Positions 32,852-35,853 of a DNA stretch of 64,000 nt are shown here, one piece after another (position 1 is the stretch's first letter; every line of letters begins with the position of its first letter). The stretch is from Oenococcus kitaharae (lineage in GTDB: Bacteria; Bacillota; Bacilli; Lactobacillales; Lactobacillaceae), in the NCBI RefSeq assembly GCF_025758695.1, contig NZ_JANJQP010000001.1, positions 558,001 to 622,000 of the forward strand, read 5' to 3'. The position numbers were made by a program, and so were the translations under genes. A model generated the notes under the pieces. The model ran no database searches and was not told where the DNA came from. It worked only from the letters and a program-made list of their open reading frames with translations.

Positions 32852-33061
32852 TCAGCGCTTTTTAAGCCAATCATAAATAGCGAGTGCGGCTACAACAATT
32901 AAAATGATGACAATGCCGTGCCAAAGCAGATTAATTAGTGAAAAGATCAGGCCAATCGCCAGGATCAGAAGCAGAATTGGCAGCAGCACTGCTGTCACGC
33001 CCACAGAAATGACACCGAAAACGGCGGCCAAGATGAGTAAAAGAATAAAAAATACGAGCAT
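32852..33061 (-). CDS. small hydrophobic membrane protein
   Basis: 69 residues from the ATG at 33059-33061, chosen because GGAGGAG lies 8 nt upstream; an in-frame ATG 8 codons earlier (33085) has no ribosome site. It is nearly all hydrophobic: two or three membrane segments (LVFFILLLILAAVFGVISVGV, TAVLLPILLLILAIGLIFSL, IVIILIVVAALAIYDWL) and a basic C-terminus. It resembles small envelope-stress (Pgp/phage-shock-like) membrane proteins, but no family is certain. It converges with 32186 with no gap. Confidence 0.7.
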   Translation of the reverse strand: MLVFFILLLILAAVFGVISVGVTAVLLPILLLILAIGLIFSLINLLWHGIVIILIVVAALAIYDWLKKR

Positions 33062-33235
33062 CAGTACAGCTCCTCCGCAAAGCATAGTTATTTTTTTTAA
33101 CAGTTAATCTCATTTTAACCGTTCAGAAGACGAGTTTGGAAAATTTTTGTAATATTACATTTTGATGACAAAAATCAAATACCTTGACTTTTAATTCAGC
33201 TCCTAGTAACCTAAGTAACAACTCAAAGAGAGTAC

Positions 33236-33313
33236 ATGCGAGATAATAGTTCACAAATGAAGATGAGTGCATCCATTATTTTGGTCAGCGTCGTGTTGTT
33301 GATTACACAGTGA
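33236..33313 (+). CDS. leader peptide rich in Ile, Leu and Val (ilvL-like)
   Basis: 25 codons, M-R-D-N-S-S-Q-M-K-M-S-A-S-I-I-L-V-S-V-V-L-L-I-T-Q, ATG at 33236 and TGA at 33311. Codons 14-23 contain nine Ile/Leu/Val codons out of ten, like the control stretches of E. coli ilvL and ivbL. It sits 115 nt before the start codon of an operon ending in the branched-chain aminotransferase, with a terminator between. The ribosome site is weak (AAAGAGAG). Expected role: the ribosome's progress through these codons senses branched-chain aminoacyl-tRNA and sets termination. An alternative is a hydrophobic small protein with its own function. Confidence 0.75.
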   Translation: MRDNSSQMKMSASIILVSVVLLITQ

Positions 33314-33371
33314 CGACTGATCATTTTGTCAGCCGTCAAAAGATGGCTGGCTGGCATGGTTGAAGATTTCA

Positions 33372-33410
33372 AAACCGTTCTAGTTAGTTGCTTACTAGAG
33401 CGGTTTTTTT
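33372..33410 (+). terminator. attenuator terminator upstream of the EIIC-like gene
   Basis: A 12-bp stem, AAACCGTTCTAG / CTAGAGCGGTTT with one G-T pair, 11-nt loop, then TTTTTTT. The AAGGAGG ribosome site of the next gene starts 8 nt later. A smaller hairpin (33356-33378, ATGGTTGAA with TTC..AACCGT) overlaps its 5' arm and could compete with it. Confidence 0.88.
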
Positions 33411-33428: not shown

Positions 33429-34700
33429 ATGACAGCAAACAACGTTCCAAAAAGCCAGGCTGATTTTTTTGATCAAGACCCCGGTTCCATGACGCCTGAA
33501 CAACGCAGCGAGGCTTATTCGCAAGCGATGTCGGCGGCAGCTAAATTCAAAAACGACCGAGCTCAGACTGAAGAGCTGCGGCCAGGTTCAGGTCCTTTGA
33601 CCCGCCCAGAGAAAAAAATGAAAATGTCTGACTGGGTCTATACAGTCAGTCAAGGAATCTCCAATGCGGTTTTGGTTATTCTTGGTATTTCCATTCTTTT
33701 GAATACAGCTGGCAATTTGCTTCACTGGGCGCCTATGCAGATGGTTGGCGTCTTAGGCCAGCATCTGCTAGCACCTGCTATTGGTGCCGGTATCGCCATT
33801 CAGCTTCGATCAACGACCTTAACAACTTTTTCAGCTATGATCGCAGCCACAGTTGGCGCCAACTCTATGTACTTTACAAGCGGCGCAATCAAAGCTGCTA
33901 CAACAGCTACTGGCTGGGTTGCACCTCAATTAGCTGGCGCCACGATCATGACTGTCGGCCAACCGATTTCCGCCGTGATTGCCGGTCTTGCAGCTGCCCT
34001 ATTAGGCAAGTGGATGACCGGTAAGACACCGCTTGATATGTTTATCGTACCTTTCTGTGCCACTTTTGTTGGTTCGGTCGTTGGCCTTGGTGCCGCAACT
34101 GTAACGACGCCATTCTTAAATTGGGTATCAAAAGGACTGGCAGACACAATGTCAGTCAACCCGATTCTTGGCGCGGCCGTCGTCTCATTTGCTTGGTTCT
34201 GGTTCTTAATGACACCCGCTTCTTCGGCTGCATTAGCCGTAGCAGTCGGGCTTGATCCAATGTCTGCCGGTGCGGCCTTAATCGGTTGCTGTGCCGCATT
34301 TTCCGGCTATACAGCAATGAGTTTTACACAAAATAATTCCGGTGCTAATATTGCCCAAGGGCTCGTAACACCGAAAGTCCAGTTTCCAAACATCATCAAA
34401 TCACCGTTAACAGCGGTTGGACCAATGATCTCAGCTGTTGTGATGGCTATATTTGCAGTAACAGTTGGCGGTTTTAGAGTACCAGCTGCCCTTGGCGGAC
34501 TTGGTTTCTCATCATTTACTGCACCGTTAAATATTCTGTCAATGCCTAAAACATCCGGCTTCTCAAATGGCTGGGGCGGTTTAGCAGTCATGCTTTTCTT
34601 CGGTTTAGTTGGCCCGGCAGTAATTTCTTGGGTTTGGTATCAGTTCTTAAAGCGCGTTGGCAAGACACGCGAAAATGATTTACACCTTGATGTTGTTTGA
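33429..34700 (+). CDS. stand-alone PTS EIIC-like membrane protein (PTS_EIIC_2 type)
   Basis: 423 residues. A charged cytoplasmic N-terminus (about 1-65) is followed by roughly ten membrane segments rich in Gly, Ala and Ser. VYTVSQGISNAVLVILGISILLNTAG, GAGIAIQLRSTTLTTFSAMIAATVGAN and FTQNNSGANIAQGLVTPKVQFPNI match the PTS_EIIC_2 family as I remember it. No EIIA or EIIB domain, and none nearby, so sugar phosphorylation is doubtful. Its mRNA starts with the branched-chain leader and probably continues into bcaT, so a role in moving a branched-chain amino or keto acid is a reasonable inference, not shown. AAGGAGG precedes the ATG. Confidence 0.8.
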   Translation: MTANNVPKSQADFFDQDPGSMTPEQRSEAYSQAMSAAAKFKNDRAQTEELRPGSGPLTRPEKKMKMSDWVYTVSQGISNAVLVILGISILLNTAGNLLHWAPMQMVGVLGQHLLAPAIGAGIAIQLRSTTLTTFSAMIAATVGANSMYFTSGAIKAATTATGWVAPQLAGATIMTVGQPISAVIAGLAAALLGKWMTGKTPLDMFIVPFCATFVGSVVGLGAATVTTPFLNWVSKGLADTMSVNPILGAAVVSFAWFWFLMTPASSAALAVAVGLDPMSAGAALIGCCAAFSGYTAMSFTQNNSGANIAQGLVTPKVQFPNIIKSPLTAVGPMISAVVMAIFAVTVGGFRVPAALGGLGFSSFTAPLNILSMPKTSGFSNGWGGLAVMLFFGLVGPAVISWVWYQFLKRVGKTRENDLHLDVV

Positions 34701-34757: not shown

Positions 34758-35792
34758 ATGACAAAAGCAAAAGCGACAGATTTTGATTGGCCGAATATTG
34801 GTTTTAATTATCATGATTTGCCATATAGTTTTCATGCAGAATTTAAGGATGGCCATTGGGATGAAGGCCATTTGACTGAAGATTCGACAATCACAATGTC
34901 TGAAGCTGCCAATGTCCTCCATTATGGACAGGAAGCTTTTGAAGGTTTGAAGGCCTATCGTCGCAAAGATGGCGGTGTTAACTTGTTCAGGCCGGATATG
35001 AATGCCAAACGGATGCATAAATCAGCTGAGCGCCTTCTGATGGAACCGTTCCCAGAGGATCGATTTGTTCAAGCCGTTAAAGAAGTTGTCAAAGCCAATC
35101 AAGACTTTGTTCCGCCATACGGTTCTGGCGCAACATTGTATGTCCGTCCGTTTTTGATTGGTACCGGTGAAGTTATCGGTGTCCATCCGGCAAATCAGTT
35201 CCAATTCCATATTCTCGTAACGCCAGTCGGCCCTTACTATAAAGGCGGCATGCAGCCAACTGCTTACGTCACTAGCCCTTATGACCGTGCCGCTCATGGT
35301 GGAACTGGCCAGTCAAAAGTTTCAGGAAACTATGCTTCTAGTCTGCTCCCTGGCTCCATCGCTCATAACGAAGGATTTTCTGATGTTGTTTACCTGGATC
35401 CTCGCTTGCATGAAAACATCGAAGAATTAGGTGGCGCCAACTTCTTTGGTATCACGAAAGATGGCAAGTTCAAAACACCGAAGTCGCCTTCTATTCTGCC
35501 TTCAATCACGAAGAAATCTTTGCTGAAATTGGCTAGTGATTTCGGAATGGAACCCGAAGAAACCACAATCAGCATTTATGATTTGGATCAGTTCTCAGAG
35601 GCCGGCGCCATGGGTACAGCTGCGGTTATCTCGCCTGTTGGTTCAATTACGCATAACGGCAACAAACATGTCTTTTACAGCGAGACCAAAGTTGGTCCAT
35701 ACACACAAAAACTTTATGATCGCCTTAGTGGTATCCAAGATGGCGACATCAAGGGCCCTGACGGCTGGCAAGTTGATGTGCCTTTGGATTAA
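34758..35792 (+). CDS. ilvE: branched-chain amino acid aminotransferase
   Basis: 344 residues from the ATG at 34758, chosen for GGAGAG about 10 nt before; the in-frame ATG at 34731 has none. It is a class IV PLP transaminase interconverting Leu, Ile and Val with their 2-oxo acids. Motifs are NVLHYGQEAFEGLKAY, TLYVRPFLIGTGEVIGVHPA, the PLP lysine in GGTGQSKVSGNYA (about K187), and the phosphate-binding SEAGAMGTAAVISPVGSI. No terminator is seen in the 57 nt after the EIIC-like gene, so both are placed under the attenuator. The products can feed the hydroxyisocaproate dehydrogenases at 29076 and 63070. Confidence 0.96.
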   Translation: MTKAKATDFDWPNIGFNYHDLPYSFHAEFKDGHWDEGHLTEDSTITMSEAANVLHYGQEAFEGLKAYRRKDGGVNLFRPDMNAKRMHKSAERLLMEPFPEDRFVQAVKEVVKANQDFVPPYGSGATLYVRPFLIGTGEVIGVHPANQFQFHILVTPVGPYYKGGMQPTAYVTSPYDRAAHGGTGQSKVSGNYASSLLPGSIAHNEGFSDVVYLDPRLHENIEELGGANFFGITKDGKFKTPKSPSILPSITKKSLLKLASDFGMEPEETTISIYDLDQFSEAGAMGTAAVISPVGSITHNGNKHVFYSETKVGPYTQKLYDRLSGIQDGDIKGPDGWQVDVPLD

Positions 35793-35827: not shown

Positions 35828-35853
35828 AAATCGTTTCTAAATTGAAACGATTT
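35828..35853 (+). terminator. terminator after ilvE
   Basis: Perfect 10-bp stem AAATCGTTTC / GAAACGATTT with a TAAATT loop, followed by TATTTTAT. It ends the EIIC-ilvE unit. Confidence 0.88.

Follow-up and report, generated by a model that had tools for sequence, protein, structure and literature searches.

A candidate ribosome-mediated attenuator for branched-chain amino acids precedes an EIIC-fold transporter gene and ilvE in Oenococcus kitaharae and related Lactobacillales

Introduction

Enterobacteria provide the classical cases of ribosome-mediated attenuation of branched-chain amino acid (BCAA) genes, and related arrangements have been described in Firmicutes. In Staphylococcus aureus, the ilv-leu attenuator contains a peptide of 26 codons in which Ile and Leu abound, with a terminator located 52 nt after the stop codon, and genetic evidence of attenuation is available (PMC5794164). 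BCAA-rich leaders followed by a terminator are also present in Lactococcus lactis, Streptococcus and Listeria, for which ribosome-mediated attenuation is proposed or supported (PMC6123439), and a survey of terminators reported a His leader in bacilli (PMC2965389). Amino acid transporter genes can be regulated by T-boxes, through which tRNA charging controls gene expression, and this relationship has been used for substrate prediction (Wels et al. 2008, PMC2494555); that paper contains none of the words EIIC, Oenococcus, Leuconostoc and ilvE.

Here we analyze a leader in a window of 64 kb (the whole stretch of DNA considered) from the 1.75 Mb genome of Oenococcus kitaharae, which belongs to the same genus as Oenococcus oeni. 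The leader stands before a gene for an EIIC-like transporter and ilvE. We found no account of leaders on EIIC or EIIC-ilvE genes in the open-access literature searched, in keeping with the initial annotation, which had been made from the DNA alone and knew of no description of a "bare ilvE plus EIIC" operon. While the mechanism is already known, the regulon formed by such leaders appears to be undescribed.

Results

An ORF of 25 codons on the forward strand (33236–33313, ATG to TGA) encodes the peptide MRDNSSQMKMSASIILVSVVLLITQ and includes a run, codons 14–23 (33275–33304), that reads I I L V S V V L L I, i.e. nine of ten codons specify Ile, Leu or Val. The frame and its codon run were thus found where the initial annotation had placed them. 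Among the 483 ATG frames of 12–40 codons on both strands of the window, this ORF alone reaches nine of ten, and when the window was copied 30 times by a first-order Markov model, only 1 of 24,418 comparable frames reached nine Ile/Leu/Val codons. The ribosome-binding site of the Oenococcus leaders is weak (AAGAGAG, 3–4 nt upstream of the ATG). A putative promoter can be read upstream on the same strand (33184–33212), consisting of TTGACT (33184–33189), a 17-nt spacer and TAACCT (33207–33212); TTGAC and the -10 region are conserved across the four Oenococcus leaders compared below, the -10 matches poorly, and the element is absent from the list produced by a consensus promoter scan. Divergent from the operon, the reverse strand (32852–33085) encodes a strongly hydrophobic protein of 77 residues that has no match in Pfam or NCBIfam, and relatives have a sequence resembling this region at the corresponding position ahead of their leaders.

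The initial annotation had also claimed that a strong intrinsic terminator follows the ORF and precedes an operon of an EIIC-like gene and ilvE, and this arrangement was recovered. A terminator hairpin with seven T residues (33371–33410, about -19 kcal/mol) lies between the leader ORF and the gene for the EIIC-like transporter (33429–34700, forward strand), which matches PF13303 (Pfam E-value 6.5e-66) and whose product is predicted to have the fold of glucose-type EIIC proteins of the phosphotransferase system (PTS). The second gene, ilvE (34758–35792, forward strand), encodes a branched-chain amino acid aminotransferase with matches above cut-off to PRK13357 and TIGR01123, and a scan of the sequence placed a terminator-like hairpin at the end of this two-gene operon (35828–35853, forward strand).

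All five near-complete genomes of the genus have the leader at strong E-values, and two incomplete genomes (65–68%) do not show it. Because the leader of one genome (G029) is identical to that of the window, four distinct Oenococcus sequences were compared, with the peptides MRDNSSQMKMSASIILVSVVLLITQ, MRSNCSQMNMNASIILISVVLLITQ, MLNNCQQMNMSESIILISIVLLITQ and MLNNCKQMNMSESIILISLVLLIRQ. By the standard that the initial annotation had set, close relatives that had kept the terminator and lost the frame or the codon run would have refuted a regulatory leader; no such relative was found among these sequences. In all four sequences the 25-codon frame, its length and its stop codon are kept, there are no indels, and AAGAGAGTACATG at the ribosome-binding site is unchanged.

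The leader of 216 nt folds much better than its shuffles (z = -5.5), and folding of the forward strand revealed six segments that can enter two mutually exclusive sets of helices, as judged in silico from the four sequences. In the terminator set, segment A (33282–33299), located within the codon run, pairs with segment B (33305–33323), which overlaps the leader stop codon (helix A:B, -17.5 kcal/mol); segment C (33328–33338) pairs with segment D (33342–33361; helix C:D, -17.2 kcal/mol); and segment E (33371–33389) pairs with segment F, which together with the T-run (33391–33410) provides the 3′ arm and tail of the intrinsic terminator E:F. In the antiterminator set, B pairs with C (33311–33321 with 33328–33338), and D forms 16 pairs with E (33345–33361 with 33373–33389), such that E is both the 5′ arm of the terminator and the 3′ arm of the antiterminator. 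Across the four sequences, 94% of the cells of the terminator set are paired, versus 25–47% when the partners are slid, and five pairs changed on both sides, with compensatory changes in four pairs of E:F. The corresponding values for the antiterminator set are 96% versus 15–46%; every B:C cell is paired, and the D:E pairs include G-C, A-U and G-U types. Covariation in the antiterminator was not above that of column shuffles, 138 of 500 of which reached the same level, four sequences being too few for this comparison. A shorter antiterminator considered first (33349–33361 with 33373–33385) could coexist with C:D and was replaced by the extended D:E helix together with B:C.

Because the complete leader at equilibrium always favours the terminator, the switch must be kinetic, as is usual for ribosome-mediated attenuators. 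When the nascent strand was folded from the leader stop to segment E, before F, the combination of B:C and D:E was the best fold in three of the four species and lay within 0.1 kcal/mol of the best fold in the window. Covering segment B, to imitate a ribosome that has reached the stop codon, led to formation of C:D and to a shorter D:E or none, the exclusion of D:E by C:D being only partial in the window and in one other sequence (G065).

Matches to the EIIC protein were found in 32 of the 40 family genera sampled, a count that includes weak, distant matches, and close relatives often adjoin ilvE. Upstream of many of these relatives is a short ATG frame with a terminal Ile/Leu/Val run, followed by a terminator (e.g. 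MSYLNANNFTAIIVVNIIVIII, MKSLSSTNFTQVIKINVVIII and MTKNVQAHQNNALLLNLLLI), with clear ribosome-binding sites and comparable alternative folds. In a tree of 97 EIIC (PF13303) proteins from Lactobacillaceae, the leader-bearing genes constitute two well supported clades: based on labels that were partly assigned by eye, leaders precede all 20 members of clade I, which includes Oenococcus, and 25 of the 26 members of clade II, where 19 are Leu-type and six Ile-type, in sister groups. A strict automatic test, requiring six Ile/Leu/Val residues in nine near the C-terminus and a terminator 55–140 nt after the stop, recovered leaders at 18 of the 20 clade I genes and at 14 of the 26 in clade II (32/46 together), as compared to none among the 51 other EIIC genes and none on reverse strands. 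A looser criterion was dropped on account of chance-like matches in two of those 51 genes. As far as these sequences indicate, leader type follows the EIIC tree, and in several genomes a clade I gene under an Ile/Val-type leader coexists with a clade II gene whose leader is Leu-type. In other families of the Lactobacillales, leaders were found at three loci with ilvE downstream (L132, L133, L135) and at three further loci (L130, L131, L134), and none was found in the sampled families f3 and f8. The pairing of EIIC with ilvE is not a local oddity: pair and leader recur in many genera of the Lactobacillaceae and in other Lactobacillales families.

Two further features of these leaders were observed. 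The six non-family leaders (L130, L131 and L134 of f2, L132 of f9, and L133 and L135 of f7) share a stem after the stop codon, AGGATTC...GAGTCCT, which seems better conserved in sequence than are the Lactobacillaceae leaders. In the Leu-type leaders of clade II (e.g. L108, L111, L114–L118, L120), CTC accounts for 41 of 79 Leu codons, versus 3% in the downstream EIIC genes, and in the Ile-type leaders of this clade GTC accounts for 20 of 28 Val codons, versus 20% downstream. This bias may reflect tuning of sensitivity by isoacceptor or, instead, RNA pairing.

A hydrophobic codon run followed by a terminator is also what might be seen if the ORF encoded a small membrane protein, its hydrophobic stretch being a transmembrane helix and the terminator ending its own short transcript. 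We consider this very improbable: the N-terminal half of the peptide is not conserved even among Oenococcus; the runs of relatives are broken by Asn, Ser, Thr, Lys or Arg (e.g. ITINVVIII, ALLRNLLS); the run always stands directly before the stop codon, about 60–115 nt upstream of the terminator and ahead of the same gene family; and the region of the stop codon pairs with the run.

The position of segment A within the run, and its pairing with B in all four Oenococcus sequences, raise the alternative that the Ile/Leu/Val codons are simply a by-product of this RNA helix in a frame that is not translated. The substitutions among these sequences make that alternative even less credible than a membrane protein. 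All of the substitutions in the nine Ile/Leu/Val codons retain the Ile/Leu/Val class, as the initial annotation had anticipated for relatives of this leader, and variable codons outside of the run mostly alter the residue. Codons 14–15 lie outside of A:B, yet they are invariant. Codon 22 alternates between TTG and CTA, which differ at two positions and both encode Leu, and codon 19 has changed three ways while remaining within the class (Val, Val, Ile and Leu in the four sequences). Furthermore, other genera retain the codon class on unrelated nucleotides, downstream of clear ribosome-binding sites. Judged by sequence comparison, the Oenococcus pattern is that expected for a sensor of codon class and is difficult to obtain from RNA pairing alone.

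Although T-boxes are in use in this genome, which gave 14 hits with the T-box model (none of them above the Rfam cut-off), the likelihood that the leader is itself a T-box, or another riboswitch binding tRNA or a metabolite, is negligible, there being no T-box match at the locus, no Rfam 15 match in the window and none upstream of EIIC in relatives. The T-box matches adjoin pheS, tyrS, metE and other genes, named from their translated proteins. Two of the T-box leaders are nearly identical (L058, G000:C2:445849-446110; L059, C2:199463-199724); one precedes a gene for a MetQ-like lipoprotein, and no ORF of at least 120 codons starts within 250 nt of the other. CodY had no match in the genome, and none of 201 family genomes contained a match above cut-off. 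Loss of CodY was rejected as the reason why certain genes have leaders, since none of the 201 passes the cut-off, with leaders or without. No ilvD gene was found in the genome, and for this reason the cell probably cannot make BCAA de novo.

A search of the EIIC-like protein against solved structures by sequence gave no match, and comparison of folds gave matches. The predicted model (mean pLDDT 86.6) aligned with the IIC domain of E. coli PtsG at Z 17.5 (310 residues, rmsd 4.7), with MalT at Z 16.9 and with ChbC at Z 14.0, well above unrelated proteins, and its eight best fold matches are PTS permeases. According to this model, the protein has a true EIIC fold of the glucose superfamily. It matches EIIC only and adjoins ilvE, with no EIIA or EIIB partner, adjacent or fused, at the locus; EIIA domains are located elsewhere in the genome. 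The O. oeni DSM 20252 EIIC gene (L032:4001-5335; same as G121:C8) contains an in-frame tandem duplication of 66 bases, which falls at about residues 201–223, in the middle of the transporter, and leaves the frame open throughout.

Discussion

By computation, the leader has the design of an attenuator: an ORF whose codons are conserved and two sets of helices that exclude each other, a design that recurs on related genes. It is highly probable, in our view, that the leader acts as a transcription attenuator of the ribosome-mediated type, reading the level of charged tRNA for Ile, Leu and Val and governing the operon for the EIIC-fold transporter and IlvE. We infer that the ORF is translated and that stalling and read-through would occur in the following way. 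When charged tRNA is ample, the ribosome would reach the stop codon and cover segment B, whereupon C would pair with D and the terminator E:F would form. Conversely, when any one of Ile, Leu or Val is short, the ribosome would stall in the codon run and mask A, permitting B to pair with C and leaving D free to take E; with D:E formed, the terminator would not form in time and the operon would be transcribed. If there is no translation, A:B, C:D and E:F would form and transcription would stop.

In a cell that lacks ilvD, the operon may serve to supply BCAA. Without de novo synthesis, induction by starvation would fit import and transamination better than breakdown. Sugar EIICs probably rely on a histidine and a glutamate to bind and phosphorylate the sugar, and the invariant columns of 48 relatives of the EIIC-like protein include no histidine or glutamate; as judged by alignment column, this would fit a substrate other than sugar. 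A branched-chain substrate is plausible, because the leaders would respond to BCAA and ilvE is the neighbouring gene of the operon. IlvE also opens the route to the branched-chain flavour compounds of fermented foods. More tentatively, we suggest, as an idea that may well prove wrong, that the substrates of orphan EIIC-fold proteins of PF13303 across the Lactobacillales are not sugars but branched-chain compounds, whether amino acids, 2-oxo acids or small precursors, and that the leaders of these proteins tell which, Ile/Val-type on one paralog and Leu-type on another. BCAA leaders stand before transporters that are annotated as sugar carriers; their codons provide a testable prediction of substrate, and paralogs with Leu- versus Ile-reading leaders make specificity directly testable.

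The leader resembles the enterobacterial attenuators of ilvGMEDA (ilvL), his, trp and leu in the regulatory codon run carried by a short ORF, in the opposition of A:B, C:D and terminator to B:C and D:E, and in its proximity to genes for the same amino acids. The description "ilvL-like" in the initial annotation accordingly suits its mode of working, the attenuator layout being present in all four sequences, and does not extend to ancestry: the enterobacteria belong to a different phylum, Rfam gave no match at the locus, and the likeness is one of design only. In addition, ilvL precedes a biosynthetic operon, whereas the Oenococcus leader precedes a transporter-like gene and ilvE in a cell without ilvD. 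T-box regulated transporters differ in that the RNA itself reads tRNA (PMC2494555), while in the Oenococcus leader, as proposed, the translating ribosome does so. The leaders of L. lactis, Streptococcus and Listeria are described for biosynthetic genes, and the parts of that source considered here mention no EIIC and no bare EIIC-ilvE operon (PMC6123439). The S. aureus ilv-leu attenuator likewise belongs to a Firmicute and combines a short peptide rich in Ile and Leu with a terminator; unlike the Oenococcus leader, it controls a full ilv-leu biosynthesis operon together with CodY, and the poly-U tail is one partner of the antiterminator proposed for it (PMC5794164). In Firmicutes, accounts of ribosome-mediated attenuation have concerned BCAA biosynthesis operons; in the present case, such attenuation would be exerted by short leaders, probably unannotated, that form a family of their own on transporter genes of one family across lactic acid bacteria that lack CodY.
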